From NCBI GenBank assembly GCA_027621915.1, contig JAQCAD010000001.1:124001-188000 (forward strand): a stretch of DNA of 64,000 nucleotides, written 5' to 3'. The DNA comes from Pseudomonadota bacterium (GTDB taxonomy: Bacteria; Pseudomonadota; Gammaproteobacteria; Steroidobacterales; Woeseiaceae). The notes under the pieces are model-generated. The model worked only from the letters and a program-made list of their open reading frames with translations, was not told the DNA's origin and did no database searches. Made by a program: the position numbers and the translations under genes. Shown piece by piece: positions 28,120 through 35,484 of the stretch. Every line of letters starts with the position of its first letter. The first letter of the stretch is position 1.

Positions 28120-29592
28120 ATGGAAAGTAAACGCATAGGAATTAGTGGGCTGGCAGCCTATACGCCACCGTTTCGCGTTTGGCTGGAGGACTGGTGCAGC
28201 TGGAGCGGCAGCCAGTGGCCGAAGATTCGCGAGGTCGTCGGCCGCAGTTTCCGCGTCCGGGGGCGGAACCAGAGTGTTTATACGATGGCCGCTACTGCCG
28301 TAATGCGACTTATCGATCAGTACGATATCGACCCTGCGCGCGTAAAGTTTCTCGGGCTTGGTACGGAATCCAGCACGGACAATTCCGCTGGCGCAATTAT
28401 TGTAAAAGGCATGGTCGATCAGGCGCTGGTCGCCCGCGGCAAAGTGCCGATTGCCCGCAGTTGCGAAGTGCCGGAATTCAAACACGCCTGCCTCGGCGGC
28501 GTGTATGGCATGAAAAGCGCCATTCGTCACCTCGCGCTGGACGGCGCCGGCGGCCAGGCGATCGTTGTGTGCGCGGACATAGCAGAATACGCCCGTGGGT
28601 CGAGTGGCGAACCCACACAAGGCGCTGGTGCTGTCGCCATGCTGCTTGAGGAAAATCCGAATCTGGCCGAAATTGATCTCGTGCATTCAGGTTCGGCGTC
28701 GGACTATCGCATTATCGATTTCCGAAAACCGATGTCGCGCTTTTGTGGTCAGGACAGCGGCGATAGTCAGCAGGTACAGGATTTCCCGGTTTTCAACGGC
28801 AAGTATTCAACAACCTGTTATATCGATGCGACATTGCATGCACTTGCCGATATGTATGAAAAACGCGGCCTGGTAGCGGCCGACTATCTGCGATCTCTTG
28901 AAACGGTTTTCATGCACCGCCCATATCGTCGCATGCCAGAGACCGGCTACGCAGTGGCGTACCTTTTTGCCCTGGGTAGCGGGTCACCGGAAGATCGCGC
29001 CGAATTGGCCTCATTCTGTTACGAGGCCGGAATAGAGCCCCAGGCGCTTCTGGATGAGATGGGCAGCAAACCGGAAATCGTGACATTTGCCGATCCGGAG
29101 CGCCTGAATTACGAGGCTTATCCGCTGACGATGGGGGTCTTTCGGATTTTCCGCGCATCACGCCGTTACCGTCGCGAAATTCTGGACAAGCTGGCACTTG
29201 GCAGCGACACGATGCTGGATCTCGGAAATCTTTATACGGCCGCCCTGCCGGCATGGGTTGCAGCGGGCTTCGAGCAGGCCGCAGAGGAGAATCTCGATTT
29301 GGCGGGCAAGGAGTTGCTTACGCTGGGTTATGGAAGCGGCGATGCTGCGGAGGTCATCCCGTTTGTTGTCGCAAAAGGATGGCGCGAAGCCACGGCTGCA
29401 ATTGGTTTCGGTAAATCCATGGAATTCGCCGTTGACCTGAACGAAGAACAATATACGGCGTTACACTCAGGCCGTCGTGCCCCGGGTCTGGACTATCTGC
29501 CAAGAAACGAGTTCATCATCGACAAGGTGGGACGCACTGACGAACGTCAGTTTCAGGATGTGGGGATCGAGTATTACCGCTACGTGAGCTAG
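28120..29592 (+). CDS. mvaS: Hydroxymethylglutaryl-CoA synthase
   Basis: Condenses acetyl-CoA with acetoacetyl-CoA to HMG-CoA, the committed start of the mevalonate pathway. 490 residues, about 100 longer than Firmicute MvaS. It has the thiolase-fold motifs: general base E83 in GTESSTDNSAGAI, catalytic C124 in EFKHACLGGVYGMKSAIRH, and a histidine in FMHRPYRRMPETGYAVAYL near residue 267. SASDYRIIDFRKPM is also family-typical. The long C-terminal part holds an extra domain of about 100 residues. It faces the rest of the mevalonate operon, separated by 85 bases. Confidence 0.93.
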   Translation: MESKRIGISGLAAYTPPFRVWLEDWCSWSGSQWPKIREVVGRSFRVRGRNQSVYTMAATAVMRLIDQYDIDPARVKFLGLGTESSTDNSAGAIIVKGMVDQALVARGKVPIARSCEVPEFKHACLGGVYGMKSAIRHLALDGAGGQAIVVCADIAEYARGSSGEPTQGAGAVAMLLEENPNLAEIDLVHSGSASDYRIIDFRKPMSRFCGQDSGDSQQVQDFPVFNGKYSTTCYIDATLHALADMYEKRGLVAADYLRSLETVFMHRPYRRMPETGYAVAYLFALGSGSPEDRAELASFCYEAGIEPQALLDEMGSKPEIVTFADPERLNYEAYPLTMGVFRIFRASRRYRREILDKLALGSDTMLDLGNLYTAALPAWVAAGFEQAAEENLDLAGKELLTLGYGSGDAAEVIPFVVAKGWREATAAIGFGKSMEFAVDLNEEQYTALHSGRRAPGLDYLPRNEFIIDKVGRTDERQFQDVGIEYYRYVS

Positions 29593-29677: not shown

Positions 29678-30256
29678 TCAATTCTTGACGGTATAGCGAG
29701 CAAGTGTCGCAGCAAAATTTTCCGTCAATCGCTGCCATTCCATCTTAAACCACGGCGTATATATTTCAGGATTCGAACGAAACGCTTCCTCAAGCTCAAC
29801 TACGGAAATAAATCGAAGCGCCTCGATTTCAGTCCTATTTGGCGTTGCGCTTCCGTCCAGCCTGCCCAAGAAAACGTGGCATAACTCATGTTCGGAACCG
29901 AGCTCCAGGTATTTCGCCTGGTAAGAAAACTTGTAGACGAACTCAAGAGATGAAATCGCGTGCAACTCGTCCTGCAAACGTCGCGTGGCGGCAAGCGCTA
30001 TCGATTCCCCCTGGCGCGGGTGGCTGCAACAACTGTTAGACCAGTACATGGGCCACAACCGCTTTCCTCGCGCCCGCTGCTGCAAAAGCAACTCACCATC
30101 ACTGTTAAAGAGAAACACAGAAAAAGCGCGATGCAATATTCCATCTCCATCGTGACAGTCCGCCTTGCTTAACAAGCCTGTTTCATTATCGTGCTCATCG
30201 ACGAGAATCAGGGATTCGTTTTCTGAGGATACGATTCTTGCAGAGGTATCGATCAC
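29678..30256 (-). CDS. idi: Isopentenyl-diphosphate delta-isomerase, type I
   Basis: 192 residues, Nudix-fold metal enzyme interconverting IPP and DMAPP, needed by any cell that relies on the mevalonate route. The catalytic cysteine is in SNSCCSHPRQGE. The partner glutamate and metal ligands are in SEHELCHVFLGRL. It is the last gene of the operon, eight bases after the reductase–kinase gene. Type I is the E. coli/eukaryote form, unlike the FMN-dependent type II often found with bacterial mevalonate genes. Confidence 0.95.
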   Translation of the reverse strand: MIDTSARIVSSENESLILVDEHDNETGLLSKADCHDGDGILHRAFSVFLFNSDGELLLQQRARGKRLWPMYWSNSCCSHPRQGESIALAATRRLQDELHAISSLEFVYKFSYQAKYLELGSEHELCHVFLGRLDGSATPNRTEIEALRFISVVELEEAFRSNPEIYTPWFKMEWQRLTENFAATLARYTVKN

Positions 30257-30264
30257 AGTGTTCC

Positions 30265-32502
30265 CTAAGCTTCCATTTGAACTATTTGATATCCGGCACT
30301 ACTTAACGCGTTGCCTACTTCACTGACTTTTCCGGGACAAAGTGCCACGATTGATCCGCCGCCACCAGACCCTGTCAACTTTGCGCCAACCGCGCCGGCA
30401 CGCCTTGCGATATCTACCATTCTCTCCAGCTCCGGCGTTGAAACCTCTAGCGCGTTAAGGAGCCCGTGGCACACGTTCATCATTGCACCCAGCCGCTCAT
30501 ATTCTCGGGCCTGCAGCGCAGCCGCGCCCGCAATACTGATATCGCCGATCTCGTCGAAAATTCTGGAGATCAACGTCTTGTTGCTTTCATAGCGACGTCG
30601 CACACTATCGATCTGATCCTTGGTGTCGCCACGGGATGCGCTGGATGCAATCACCAATGGTGGACTCTCTGCAAGACTGACTGATCGCATTTGCCGGTCA
30701 CCTTTATTGAACAGGACAGGCTGGTTGAACGTCGCAACATTGTTGTCAATTCCGGAGGGCGTACCATGAACAATTTCTTCACAACGAAACGCTAGCTGGT
30801 CAACCTCTGAATCACGCTTTCCCATGCCAAGCAGCGAGTCGAACGCACGAATTACGGCAACCGCGAACGCCGCAGAAGATCCCAGGCCCATGCCAATTGG
30901 TATTCTTGAAAGTACGTGAATATTGAAGCACCGGTCGCCAACTCCAAATTCAGCCATGATCAATGCGAGCACCGCGGCAACTCCGGCGGACTGGTGATCC
31001 CGAGGCGACCATTCGCTCATCAGATTCCAGTCGGGAACGGATAATTTTACGCGGTCTGCTCCTTTGCTGACTGTCGCCGTCAGCGCATTTGCCAGTGGCA
31101 GCGCAAGCGCAGAGCGGTTATAGACGACCGCGTGCTCGCCGAGCAATATCACTTTGCCGGCTGCGGCGCCTCGAGCTGCATTACCGGAAAGCGCGAGGTC
31201 AGATTTGTCGGTGCGGCCGCTCATTTCGGCCGTCAGCTCCTTCGCCTTCCAGGTCTTGATCTCTCCACTCTCGATCATCCCGGATACGACTTTATCGAAC
31301 ACGCCGTCCGGCACACCTGCTGTTGCCGCCACACTTCTGGCATGCAGGCTCATATGGCCCTTTTGAATACCGTCGGAAACCAGCGCCTTGAGCGCGGCAA
31401 AATTTTGTGCAAGACCGGTCGCGGCCATCACCTCTGCTAACTCGGTGGCAGATGACGTACCGCAAATGGCAAGCCCCAGCCTTGCGCCAGGATTGGACTC
31501 CAGTGACCCGCCAACGATGCCAACCTTTAAAGGCAGAGTCAGCTCACCCGACAAGTCTCCGTCTGGCAAGACCGTCCAGCTTGTCAGCGCACGGTATGCG
31601 CCGTGACGAGCCGCATACGCATGAGCACCCGCTTCAATTGCCCGCCAGTCATTACCCGTCGCAATCGCGACGGCGTCGATACCGTTCATGATTCCCTTGT
31701 TGTGCGTCGCCGCTCGATACGGATCAACATTGGCGAATTCATTTGCGCGCACGATGGCGTCGCGTACCTCCTCTGCCGAATGACCGCTGCTCGCAAGAAG
31801 CTCAAGCGAAACCTTCCCGTGCACGGTAACAAGAGACCTGTCCGCCAGGTTGGACAGTATGCAGAGACTGGTGCCGGCAGCAGAGATTGCGGATACCCGA
31901 GCGGCCACGCTCTCGCAGATCGAATTGACGACGTTGGCTCCCATCGCATCGCGGGTATCCACTAGCAGATGCAAGACGACGATCCACTCGCGACCCGGGA
32001 GTTGGTGCTTGAAGAATTCAATATCCCGTACACCACCGCCGCGTGCCAGGAGATTCGGCTGCAACTGGTTCGCAAAATCCGTGAGCTCCTGTTTCGCGAC
32101 TTTCAGACTTTCGATCACAACGTCGGGATTCCTGACATCTCCAAGTTGAATCTGGCCAATCAGGATTGGGTCGGTCGAAGTTGCGACGAATCCACCACTT
32201 GCCCGAAAGAGTTTCGCCGCTCCGCTCACGCCTGCGACGATTGATGGCTCTTCAACTACCATCGGCACGACGTAGTCTTTGTCATTGACAAGGAAATTTG
32301 GTGCAACACCGAAGGGCAATCCGAAAACGCCGATGACGTTTTCGATCATGCGATTCGCGGTTGTGACCGGCAGCAACGGCCTGCCTTCAGTCAGCAAGCG
32401 CGCGGCGTCCCGATCAATAAAACCCTCGGCGGACAATGACCGAATCCGGTCTTCAATCGCCAGTCGATAGAACCCGGCCAGTCGCGAATCGCTCAAGTGC
32501 AA
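30265..32502 (-). CDS. HMG-CoA reductase (class II)–mevalonate kinase fusion
   Basis: One 745-residue chain with two pathway enzymes. Residues 1 to about 425 are a full class II HMG-CoA reductase, close in layout to the Pseudomonas mevalonii enzyme. Catalytic residues are E85 (VVEEPSIVAG), K269 (THNKGIMNGID), D285 (ATGNDW) and H387 (GHMSLHARS). Residues about 444–745 are a GHMP mevalonate kinase: GKVILLGEHAVVY (449–461), PIGMGLGSSAA (535–545), TPSGIDNNVATF with D586, and KLTGSGGGGS near the end. A short linker (about 425–443) joins them with no stop or frameshift. The start is TTG 32502, overlapping the upstream kinase gene by 10 bases; TTG 32496 is an alternative. It converts HMG-CoA to mevalonate and on to phosphomevalonate. 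Confidence 0.93.
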   Translation of the reverse strand: MHLSDSRLAGFYRLAIEDRIRSLSAEGFIDRDAARLLTEGRPLLPVTTANRMIENVIGVFGLPFGVAPNFLVNDKDYVVPMVVEEPSIVAGVSGAAKLFRASGGFVATSTDPILIGQIQLGDVRNPDVVIESLKVAKQELTDFANQLQPNLLARGGGVRDIEFFKHQLPGREWIVVLHLLVDTRDAMGANVVNSICESVAARVSAISAAGTSLCILSNLADRSLVTVHGKVSLELLASSGHSAEEVRDAIVRANEFANVDPYRAATHNKGIMNGIDAVAIATGNDWRAIEAGAHAYAARHGAYRALTSWTVLPDGDLSGELTLPLKVGIVGGSLESNPGARLGLAICGTSSATELAEVMAATGLAQNFAALKALVSDGIQKGHMSLHARSVAATAGVPDGVFDKVVSGMIESGEIKTWKAKELTAEMSGRTDKSDLALSGNAARGAAAGKVILLGEHAVVYNRSALALPLANALTATVSKGADRVKLSVPDWNLMSEWSPRDHQSAGVAAVLALIMAEFGVGDRCFNIHVLSRIPIGMGLGSSAAFAVAVIRAFDSLLGMGKRDSEVDQLAFRCEEIVHGTPSGIDNNVATFNQPVLFNKGDRQMRSVSLAESPPLVIASSASRGDTKDQIDSVRRRYESNKTLISRIFDEIGDISIAGAAALQAREYERLGAMMNVCHGLLNALEVSTPELERMVDIARRAGAVGAKLTGSGGGGSIVALCPGKVSEVGNALSSAGYQIVQMEA

Positions 32503-33506
32503 TTTCCGTCCGAAACCTCAACACCATTTTGATCCAGGGCAAAATCGAGACTAACGAAGCCGCTTTCCTTCGCCCTCTCGCCAAACCGAACCACCGCCGA
32601 TTCATCAATTGCCATCACAATTCCAATATCCCCGCCTCCTGCGCCACACGGTTTGTATACAACGCCAGACGGCGCCGCCAAGTCCACCAACCCGTCGTGG
32701 CCAGCATCGAATATGCCAAGATTGTGGTCAATACTGAATCGCCGGAGCACTTTGGTGTAGCGACGGATTTCGTCAAGAATATCCGTTACATTGCCACCGG
32801 CCCAAGTCGACGATACTGCCTGCGCAGCAGTCAAAAGTGCATCCCAATTCCCTTCATCTCCGGTTGTCAGGCCCAGTTTGCTGATTTTGCTCCCGGTATC
32901 CGCCGCCTGCCCGCTCCACAAAAAACGAAAGAAAAGGCCCTCTGGCCACCGAAGCTGCAACGGCGCATCCCGATTGTTCATCCTGAATTCGATCACTCCG
33001 CCGTGCAGGCTCGTTGCGATGTCGACTCCGCTGCCCTGGCCACGTTGAAATGCCTTGTGTGCTTTCATAGCCAGGGCCCCGCGATTGTGCTGACCTGGAG
33101 CCAGCTCGCACAACGCACCAATCAGCGCGGTCATCGCTGCAGCGCTGGAACCCAGGCCGAGTTTTATGCCGGAGCCCGCCGCGAAGAAACTGCGTGTATC
33201 AACTGTTATCGACAGGCCGCGTTGCTCACGCGGCGCGGTAGCGAGCCATGCCATTTCAACAAGAGCCAGCCCCCCTATCGGCGGCTCGTCGAGCCAGGCG
33301 ACTTCTCCCCTGTCATTTGCCGTGAATCGCCACTGCCCCTCGGCGTGCCCTGGTGTCGCAATGCTGTGAAAGTCCTTTCCCGTCGTAGTCACTCGAACAT
33401 CCGCGCGGCAGTTTACGGCGACTGATATCGCAGGCGCTTCGCGGAGCACTGCGTATTCTCCCGACAAAACGGCCTTGCCTGGAGCACTGGCCGAGATAAA
33501 CGTCAC
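32493..33506 (-). CDS. Phosphomevalonate kinase (GHMP family)
   Basis: 337 residues from GTG 33506, which overlaps the mvaD stop as GTGA. A longer frame to 33617 runs through mvaD and is not used. The N-terminus ASAPGKAVLSGEYAVLREAP, the ATP loop GIKLGLGSSAAAMTAL, GQGSGVDIATSLHGGVIEF and the C-terminal YKPCGAGGGDIGIVMA are the ERG8/MvaK2 pattern. The gene makes diphosphomevalonate for mvaD. It is flanked by mvaD and the reductase–kinase fusion with overlaps on both sides. Confidence 0.88.
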   Translation of the reverse strand: MTFISASAPGKAVLSGEYAVLREAPAISVAVNCRADVRVTTTGKDFHSIATPGHAEGQWRFTANDRGEVAWLDEPPIGGLALVEMAWLATAPREQRGLSITVDTRSFFAAGSGIKLGLGSSAAAMTALIGALCELAPGQHNRGALAMKAHKAFQRGQGSGVDIATSLHGGVIEFRMNNRDAPLQLRWPEGLFFRFLWSGQAADTGSKISKLGLTTGDEGNWDALLTAAQAVSSTWAGGNVTDILDEIRRYTKVLRRFSIDHNLGIFDAGHDGLVDLAAPSGVVYKPCGAGGGDIGIVMAIDESAVVRFGERAKESGFVSLDFALDQNGVEVSDGNCT

Positions 33507-34465
33507 ACGACTTCCATTTTTCTGGCGCCCGGTCCAAGGCTGCTTCGCATCGTGTTCAACACGCCGCGAGTCTGTCGCAGTGCGACTGTTACGGCATCGG
33601 CTGCCTCCGGCAGGCACACTGCCTTGACTTGCGGCCCTGCATCGATCGTAAAAAAAACAGGGAGACCGTCAGCCTGCAACGCTCGTATGGTTTCCATAGA
33701 GGACAAAGTAGCGGAGTTCCAGTAAACAATCGGCGGTCTCGAACTCCACATGACCGAGTGCATCTTCAAACAATTGTGCTCTGCAATAGCGCCCAGTTTC
33801 GCAAAATCCCGGGCGAGCACGGCATCCCGGGCGGCGGTCAGATCGTCATCCTGTCGCTCGATCCAGCTCGAGTAGAAAGGCGATGTTTTCTCGCCACGAA
33901 TCATGGCTTCTCCGGAGCCAACCGGTTTCGGACCTTCTTCGGTAATTGCGACGACAACTTCAAGCGGCCATTCCGAACTTTCGCAAACGGTTTGCACGTC
34001 AATCTCATCCTGACGGGCGGTCAGCACGACGAAGCCACCATAGAGTGACCTTGCGGCAGAGCCAGAGGATGCCCCAGCAATCCTTGCCAAATCGAGCAAG
34101 TTCCGCGAGCCACCACACTCGCCTTCCGCCGCAATCACAAGCGCGGCGAATGCTGAAGCTGATGACGCGAGGCCTGCCCCAATCGGAAAGTTGCTATGAC
34201 TGATGACGTCAGCGCGCGGACGGACCGGGCCGGCCACGAGATCCAGGCAATGACTCACCCGTGCCAACATTGCCGGTGCCTGGGCGTCATTCACCAGGAG
34301 CGTATCCGGCCCATCGTTGTCGCGAAACTCGACCGACATTCTTGTCCACAGGCTTTGCAGCGTGACGGACAGAGAACTGACGGCTGGCAGATTCTGCGAA
34401 TGATCGCGCTTACCCCAGTATTTAATCAGCGCGATATTCGGCTGTGCCTGTGCGACGGTAGTCAT
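33503..34465 (-). CDS. mvaD: Diphosphomevalonate decarboxylase
   Basis: 320 residues, normal length, first gene of the minus-strand mevalonate operon. ATP-dependent decarboxylation yields IPP. Family markers are PNIALIKYWGKRD at the N-terminus, the SSLSVTL segment, the phosphate loop HSNFPIGAGLASSASAFAAL, ASSGSAARSLYGGFV, and MHSVMWSSRPPIVYW in the C-terminal half. It is divergent from ispA across about 100 bases, a likely shared promoter region for the isoprenoid genes. Confidence 0.94.
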   Translation of the reverse strand: MTTVAQAQPNIALIKYWGKRDHSQNLPAVSSLSVTLQSLWTRMSVEFRDNDGPDTLLVNDAQAPAMLARVSHCLDLVAGPVRPRADVISHSNFPIGAGLASSASAFAALVIAAEGECGGSRNLLDLARIAGASSGSAARSLYGGFVVLTARQDEIDVQTVCESSEWPLEVVVAITEEGPKPVGSGEAMIRGEKTSPFYSSWIERQDDDLTAARDAVLARDFAKLGAIAEHNCLKMHSVMWSSRPPIVYWNSATLSSMETIRALQADGLPVFFTIDAGPQVKAVCLPEAADAVTVALRQTRGVLNTMRSSLGPGARKMEVV

Positions 34466-34566
34466 TATTGCCAGTCCGGATCTGGTGTTTGCTTTGCGCT
34501 ACGCGCCGGGACCGGAATTATAGCGCCCAAGGGCGTCCAGTTGAGGTTTCGTGTACGCTTGTCGCG

Positions 34567-35484
34567 ATGAGCAGCATGGGCAAATTCGAGGCGGATATAG
34601 ACCCGTTCACAGGAATATTGTCGGCCTATACCGAACGCGTGGAAAGGTGTCTTGGCGAGGCTCTGCCACCTTCGAGCGAGGTACCTGAGCGGCTGCATAC
34701 GGCGATGAGATACGCGACCCTGAACGGTGGTAAGCGGCTCAGACCACTGCTTGTGTATGCCAGCGGCGAATGCCTCGGAGTCGATTTCTGCAAACTTGAT
34801 GTGCCTGCAGTCGCGATTGAACTGATTCACTCGTTTTCCCTGGTCCACGACGATCTGCCCGCCATGGATAATGATGATCTGCGGCGCGGCCAACCGACTG
34901 TGCATCGTAAATTTGATGAGGCGACAGCGATTCTCGCAGCAGACGCGCTCCAGCCACTGGCCTTTCAGGTTATCGCCACATCGTCTGCACTAAGTGCTGA
35001 AGAAGTGACGAAACTGGTCGCGCTGGTGGCCGAGGCCTGCGGCTCGCTTGGCATGACCGGCGGTCAGGCGATAGACCTTGCGTCCGAGGGTAAGGAACTC
35101 TCGGTCGATGAGCTGGCGAGACTGCATGGCCTTAAAACCGGCGCACTCATCCGCGCCGCCATACTTTCCGCATGTCAGCTCGCCGGCGAAATACCGCGAG
35201 ACCAATGGACAGCCATGGATAATTTCGCTCGTAACATCGGGCTCGCGTTTCAGATTCGAGACGACATACTCGATGTCACCGGCGAGACCGACGTCATTGG
35301 TAAGCCGGCCGGCTCGGATCAGAAGTTGAAAAAAGCGACCTGGCCCGCGCTGTTCGGCATGGAAGAGAGCACGCATCGCTGCGAAGCGCTGCTTGCGTCT
35401 GCATTGCGTGAGCTGGACCTGTTCGGCGACAGTGGTGATAGCCTGAGATGGTTGGCAAATTACGTCGTCGAGCGTGTGCGATGA
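34567..35484 (+). CDS. ispA: Farnesyl diphosphate synthase / short-chain polyprenyl synthase
   Basis: 305 residues from ATG 34567; an upstream frame extension to 34468 lies in the promoter region. First aspartate-rich motif DDLPAMDNDD (95–104), with GGKRLRP upstream. The second motif is DDILD (about residue 236) in FQIRDDILDVTGETDVIGK. The sequence around the first motif is of the bacterial FPP synthase type. It elongates IPP/DMAPP from the divergent operon to C15 and feeds quinone and undecaprenyl synthesis. Its stop overlaps the dinB start (ATGA). Confidence 0.94.
   Translation: MSSMGKFEADIDPFTGILSAYTERVERCLGEALPPSSEVPERLHTAMRYATLNGGKRLRPLLVYASGECLGVDFCKLDVPAVAIELIHSFSLVHDDLPAMDNDDLRRGQPTVHRKFDEATAILAADALQPLAFQVIATSSALSAEEVTKLVALVAEACGSLGMTGGQAIDLASEGKELSVDELARLHGLKTGALIRAAILSACQLAGEIPRDQWTAMDNFARNIGLAFQIRDDILDVTGETDVIGKPAGSDQKLKKATWPALFGMEESTHRCEALLASALRELDLFGDSGDSLRWLANYVVERVR

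Follow-up and report, generated by a model that had tools for sequence, protein, structure and literature searches.

The window, a stretch of 64,000 nucleotides from a contig of a Woeseiaceae genome, contains a gene in which a class II HMG-CoA reductase is followed, within the same reading frame, by a mevalonate kinase (Table 1). The earlier note on this DNA had placed both enzymes in one uninterrupted frame between 30265 and 32502 and had given no strand. The frame is that of the minus strand, where 745 codons are open from a first TTG at 32502, and the plus strand carries many stops in the same register. Both halves were recognized by NCBIfam above the curated cut-offs (TIGR00532 at residues 5-388, 352.3 bits vs. 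259.95; TIGR00549 at residues 447-721, 249.1 bits vs. 163.05), the Pfam domains follow each other in the order HMG-CoA_red (45-388), GHMP_kinases_N (510-591) and GHMP_kinases_C (661-738), and the catalytic residues are intact, so that the description of a single joined frame has been borne out. The likelier start of the protein is the second TTG (codon 3, position 32496), which gives 743 amino acids. Matches in many relatives begin at residue 3 of the fusion, and no match starts at residue 1. The fusion start also overlaps the end of the upstream kinase gene, the four bases TTGA being common to the stop of that gene and the second TTG; because of this overlap the translation of both genes is probably coupled and the start is probably codon 3.

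Table 1. Features of the fusion locus (positions in the window; residues numbered from the first TTG of the fusion)
Feature	Position	Strand	Details
HMG-CoA synthase, divergent	28120..29592	plus	TIGR01835 159 bits, below cut-off 360; named by best match and position
Isopentenyl-diphosphate isomerase type 1	29678..30256	minus	TIGR02150, above cut-off; first GTG 8 bases past the fusion stop
Fused class II HMG-CoA reductase-mevalonate kinase	30265..32502	minus	745 aa from first TTG; likely 743 aa from codon 3
Mevalonate kinase part	30340..31164	minus	residues 447-721 (TIGR00549); K450, E456, S543, E575, D586, K708, T710
Variable linker	31159..31242	minus	residues 421-448; pLDDT <50 at 431-439
HMG-CoA reductase part	31339..32490	minus	residues 5-388 (TIGR00532); E85, K269, D285, H387; cofactor helix 148-154 = QPNLLAR
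GHMP kinase, probable phosphomevalonate kinase	32493..33617	minus	TIGR01220 86 bits, below cut-off 166; named by best match and gene order
Diphosphomevalonate decarboxylase MvaD	33503..34465	minus	TIGR01240, above cut-off
Farnesyl diphosphate synthase	34468..35484	plus	NF045485, above cut-off; divergently transcribed

The fusion is the third gene in a minus-strand row (decarboxylase, probable phosphomevalonate kinase, fusion, IPP isomerase) flanked on the plus strand by the genes of HMG-CoA synthase and farnesyl diphosphate synthase. The order of the four minus-strand genes is frequent in relatives but not constant, since some loci have genes that are absent from the stretch or located elsewhere. 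Of the 93 distinct loci with both genes, 75 have the stop of the phosphomevalonate kinase at most 30 bases away from where the fusion is estimated to start; this kinase was not found in 19 further loci. The HMG-CoA synthase of the window is far from the curated bacterial model, yet close copies of it are found in relatives, which marks it as a member of a divergent subfamily.

The source assembly consists of 101 contigs, which would fit a joint produced by misassembly or a frameshift. There is no stop or frameshift near codon 430, where the earlier note had advised to look for one. Besides, the identical architecture recurs in many assemblies, some of them of isolates, with 112 distinct proteins in all (contained copies were removed and near-copies stay, so that sequences and not independent lineages are counted, and one row is cut by a contig end). 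In a set of 60 genomes, made up of that of the window and 59 relatives, all 46 carriers have the junction within one frame (two carriers, G002 and G009, count from two match pieces in one common open frame). Among named records, 80 loci were kept as the best of 580 matches to the kinase half of fused proteins, a query that favours fusions; 78 of them have the junction in one frame too, and the remaining two are cut by a contig end. These one-frame junctions exclude chance or an artefact, whose probability we consider negligible.

The residues that the earlier note had listed for the reductase (E85, K269, D285 and H387), which we take to be the catalytic Glu, Lys, Asp and His of class II enzymes, are present and identical in 112 of the 112 distinct fusions. 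The N-terminal half resembles free reductases up to approximately residue 426; with the P. mevalonii reductase the similarity continues until residue 426, and therefore the flap domain appears to be complete ahead of the linker. By sequence, the closest solved relatives of this half are the P. mevalonii-type reductases (1qax; Burkholderia cenocepacia, 6p7k; Delftia acidovorans, 6dio), alike in fold (TM by target length 0.85-0.96) and in catalytic residues. These, however, are free enzymes. The sampled free reductases of the P. mevalonii type begin the cofactor helix with Asp, whereas the fusions have His, Gln or Asn there, Arg at position 7 and a kinase behind.

This kinship with the P. mevalonii, Burkholderia and Delftia type, together with the name 'degradative' borne by the NCBI model TIGR00532, would fit a degradative, mevalonate-using reductase to which a kinase has become attached by accident. 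The cofactor helix speaks against such a role. PMC13370337 gives the motif of this helix as Dx(V/L)xxxL in NADH enzymes and (H/Y)xSxxxR in NADPH enzymes. The NADH motif is absent from the helix of all 112 distinct fusions: position 1 is His in 93, Gln in 18 and Asn in one, never the NADH-type Asp, and position 7 is invariably Arg. Among 17 distinct rows of P. mevalonii-type free reductases, on the other hand, position 1 is always Asp and position 7 is Leu (15) or His (2). The NADPH motif is fitted in part only, position 3 being mostly Arg, Asn or Lys and seldom Ser (2 of 121 rows, duplicates still in); the fusion of the window has Gln, Asn and Arg at positions 1, 3 and 7. A second group of free reductases has Arg at position 7 as well (13/13 distinct) and Ala, Ile or Leu at position 1. 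Class II reductases with this Arg (the 'undefined' branches) are not restricted to NADPH and can use both cofactors, according to PMC13370337. We read the pattern of the fused reductases as NADPH-leaning and biosynthetic, contrary to the name of the model. The name itself is not diagnostic, because it is also on a Listeria monocytogenes record (H16), a species that PMC13370337 seems to count with those preferring NADPH. Considering also that the neighbours of the fusion are biosynthetic genes of the mevalonate pathway and that a search of the window's genome found neither Dxr nor IspH, a degradative enzyme is highly improbable and a biosynthetic reductase is the reading that we follow.

The second half had been described as a complete GHMP kinase with its motifs, and this holds: besides the TIGR00549 score above cut-off, K450, E456, H457, S543, E575 and D586 are identical in 112/112 distinct fusions, K450, S543, E575 and D586 among them representing the GHMP motifs with the catalytic Lys and Asp. 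K708 and T710 are kept in 111 of the 112, the other row being gapped and probably that of L020, which leaves its contig. A kinase half that is inactive or only regulatory, with its job done by another kinase, is at odds with K450, E456, S543, E575 and D586 being kept throughout, and no evidence in its favour turned up. As suggested by the earlier note, a separate mevalonate kinase was sought elsewhere in the window's genome, and no second match lies above the TIGR00549 cut-off. The other kinase matches of the genome are the probable phosphomevalonate kinase, a galactokinase (L081; TIGR00131, 287 bits, cut-off 227) and a weak GHMP match at contig C91. Neither an interrupted frame nor a separate kinase next to an inactive half was seen, since no other kinase is above cut-off and the residues are intact; an inactive half is extremely unlikely, and we take the kinase to be a working one.

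Among solved structures, those of archaeal kinases, the M. mazei enzyme being one, come closest to the kinase half. The enzymes of M. mazei (6mde, 4hac) and MKbur (8teb) are its best PDB matches by sequence and among the best by Foldseek, and have the fold and the motifs in common with it; they are, however, free enzymes, only ~31-34% identical to the fused half. The M. mazei kinase resists feedback by prenyl diphosphates, according to PMC5817203. At this level of identity, the likeness provides only a hint that the fused kinase may be resistant too.

A way to approach the relationship between both halves is to look at the region that connects them. Across the 112 distinct fusions the linker (residues 421-448) varies in length from 10 to 70 residues (median 30), and its mean column identity is 27%, vs. 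71% for the reductase and 61% for the kinase. An AlphaFold2 model, obtained with 70 fused sequences, has two confident domains (mean pLDDT 88.4, whole-chain pTM 0.69) joined by a linker with pLDDT below 50 at residues 431-439. Foldseek retrieved class II reductases, with P. mevalonii as the first matches (TM by target ~0.91), and the mevalonate kinases MKbur, L. major and M. mazei. True substrate channelling, i.e., mevalonate passed directly from the reductase to the kinase in a fixed assembly with coupled regulation, is suggested by the presence of consecutive pathway steps within one chain, and no free reductase of the sample falls inside the fused clade. Nevertheless, a linker so variable in length and sequence compared with the halves, and a model in which the low linker pLDDT and the pTM give no confident fixed arrangement of the domains, make this improbable. 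A rigid channel in particular is unlikely because the linker is variable in length and of low confidence; a flexible tether would be less suited to a tunnel than to keeping both halves close together and in fixed stoichiometry.

The linker might also harbour an internal start from which the kinase half is produced separately. In the window the linker contains an ATG in frame (residue 427), and AAGGAG precedes this codon by 12 bases. This is not a conserved feature of the fusions as judged from their sequences: 27 of the 112 linkers have an ATG and so do 33 of 112 control stretches, an ATG plus a Shine-Dalgarno-like site occurs in only 3 of the 112, and any start codon plus such a site in 10/112 linkers vs. 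12/112 control stretches. Separate production of the kinase is thus very unlikely, and a single two-domain product remains the preferred reading.

How widespread the fusion is had been left open by the earlier note. By record labels, it is present in Gammaproteobacteria and at least six other phyla. Within the order sample, a match at E<=1e-20 was obtained for 199 of 396 genomes (four of family f10, with weaker matches, are counted in), a match not being always a complete fusion; of the 107 genomes shown for the window's family, 102 have one. Less biased counts come from the scans of the class and the phylum, for which the whole protein was used as query and two candidates were scored per genome. 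The fusion was found in 10 of 369 genomes of the class (counting the window's own and one whose fusion is interrupted by a contig end) and in 2 of 398 of the phylum (own genome included), and unfused class II reductases in 18 and 13, respectively. The carriers include isolates of Wenzhouxiangella, Dyella, Rhodanobacter, Salinisphaera and Cryobacterium, and metagenome bins labelled Calditrichota, KSB1, Melioribacteraceae, Acidobacteria, Myxococcales, Planctomycetota and Actinomycetota (Nakamurella, Microbacteriaceae), labels that may err. A search of the plasmid database PLSDB gave 59 matching records, none of which covers 80% or more of the query, and all of the 20 matches listed stop before residue 435.

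Phylogenies of both halves were consistent with a common origin. For the reductase tree 157 rows were reduced to 142 by dropping contained copies (112 fused and 30 free class II enzymes), and the fused sequences make up one side of a branch with SH-aLRT 100, the P. mevalonii type being closest. In the kinase tree the fused sequences are also one side of a branch (SH-aLRT 95), apart from 23-24 other bacterial kinases. This first kinase tree left out the duplicates L055, L074 and L075, the galactokinase L081, L188, and the second, shorter GHMP frames in L182, L185, L186 and L187, and scored L127 and L154, both cut by contig ends, as fused. The value was 94 when the tree was repeated without the latter two and with L188, which is galactokinase-like, L081 being in no group. 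Both trees were quick searches with long branches flagged, and the one-clade result, firmer for the reductase half, is based for the kinase half on free kinases of the class only. The sample fits a single fusion event, and an old one. There was probably no more than this one origin, in a reductase akin to the Pseudomonas mevalonii type and perhaps through the joining of overlapping operon genes; the fusion would then have spread through lineages, many of them without the MEP pathway.

Three of the 112 distinct fusions are extended by a phosphomevalonate kinase or an IPP isomerase. Two loci of one genus, L078:2558-6799(-) (G043) and L079:1665-5066(+) (G056), have a frame that runs without interruption through phosphomevalonate kinase, reductase and mevalonate kinase and that in G056 measures 1133 aa from stop to stop. 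The first part of this type of frame scores 156.9 bits with TIGR01220, just below the cut-off of 165.7, and a trifunctional enzyme is possible. At the joint there is a GTG with GGAG six bases upstream, and initiation there may give a separate product. The third, L080:6903-9713(+) (G018, of another genus), is a frame of 936 aa with an ATG start that combines reductase, mevalonate kinase and IPP isomerase. These (L078/L079 and L080) are the only larger fusions that held. The long frames of L014, L028, L112, L123, L132, L139, L151, L156 and L197-L201 were discarded: BLAST found in them none of the seven queried pathway genes as an addition, Pfam shows no further domain in that of L151, and these long stop-to-stop frames look like chance open frames upstream. 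A different partner appears in L083:193-2463(+) (G112) and L084:6016-8232(-) (G376), where an HMG-CoA synthase is fused to a mevalonate kinase, both domains above NCBIfam cut-offs. Their kinases belong to another branch of the kinase tree, i.e., this is a separate fusion.

As to the isoprenoid route served by the fusion, neither Dxr (PF02670) nor IspH (PF02401) was found in the assembly of the window's genome, which at 95% completeness makes these absences less than certain, and the fusion seems to belong to the only isoprenoid route of this organism. Among the 60 genomes mentioned above, Dxr was found in none of the 46 fusion carriers vs. 10 of the 14 non-carriers (Fisher p 1.3e-8, uncorrected for kinship). 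Four genomes have neither (G012, G029, G035 and G042). One of them, G012, belongs to the window's family and is 94% complete, and may reflect an assembly gap or another route. Fusion and non-fusion states both occur in family f4, in different genera. This exclusion of Dxr does not extend to more distant carriers: the genomes behind the named loci present a Dxr match in 9 of 50 cases (seven clear, two weak), Dyella psychrodurans, Rhodanobacter lindaniclasticus and Cryobacterium sp. M96 among them; one of the seven clear ones is the genome behind L154, the locus with a cut-off fusion. Where Dxr is present in this way, the fusion may provide an additional route of a specialised kind. The genome of the window also has, on contig C91 (L190), a second HMG-CoA reductase, of class I type. 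Its neighbours are a UbiA-like prenyltransferase, a PEP-synthase-like protein, an RND-type transporter and an OleC-like acyl-CoA ligase, all genes of this region being below equivalog cut-offs; it is possibly a biosynthetic cluster.

Natural fusions of isoprenoid enzymes are not without precedent. Enterococcus MvaE is an acetoacetyl-CoA thiolase-HMG-CoA reductase, with structures of the E. faecalis reductase available (7m1z, named acetyl-CoA C-acetyltransferase, and 7m3h). Like the fusion of the window, it naturally joins two enzymes of the mevalonate pathway, a class II reductase included, but its partner is the upstream thiolase at the N-terminal side whereas ours is the kinase at the C-terminal side; a Pfam search for a thiolase domain in the window fusion gave no match. 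IspDF also joins isoprenoid-pathway enzymes, although of another pathway (MEP) and for non-consecutive steps, and it is the sole 'fusion' in the main text of a review of bacterial isoprenoid pathways (PMC13001223). In the open-licence literature searched we have found no recognisable description of a natural HMG-CoA reductase-mevalonate kinase fusion; the architecture is surely already present in sequence databases.

These observations taken together suggest that the fusion is very probably a biosynthetic enzyme with two activities of the mevalonate pathway. Its N-terminal half, probably a class II dimer that uses NADPH, would convert HMG-CoA into mevalonate, and the C-terminal half would phosphorylate this mevalonate with ATP. 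Class II reductases have a mobile flap domain, behind which the kinase would sit on its flexible tether; with a kinase tethered to each reductase chain there would be two kinases per reductase dimer. The benefit may be a fixed 1:1 supply of both activities and a quick capture of mevalonate, with no rigid tunnel. More tentatively, and with the balance at present tilted against it, one could imagine a mevalonate cassette, invented once and with the fused enzyme at its core, that took the place of the MEP pathway in many Gammaproteobacteria, passed between at least seven phyla and grows by further fusion, turning the reductase dimer into a scaffold for three steps.

In a wide range of bacteria, two textbook enzymes thus make up one protein. 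The reductase half is matched by an NCBI model with the name 'degradative', and if both halves work the annotation of probably hundreds of genomes would be corrected. The fusion would then also offer pathway engineers a natural two-step enzyme and mark a swap between the MEP and mevalonate pathways inside one bacterial order, and the fusions of growing length would let the effect of joining consecutive enzymes be tested on flux or feedback.
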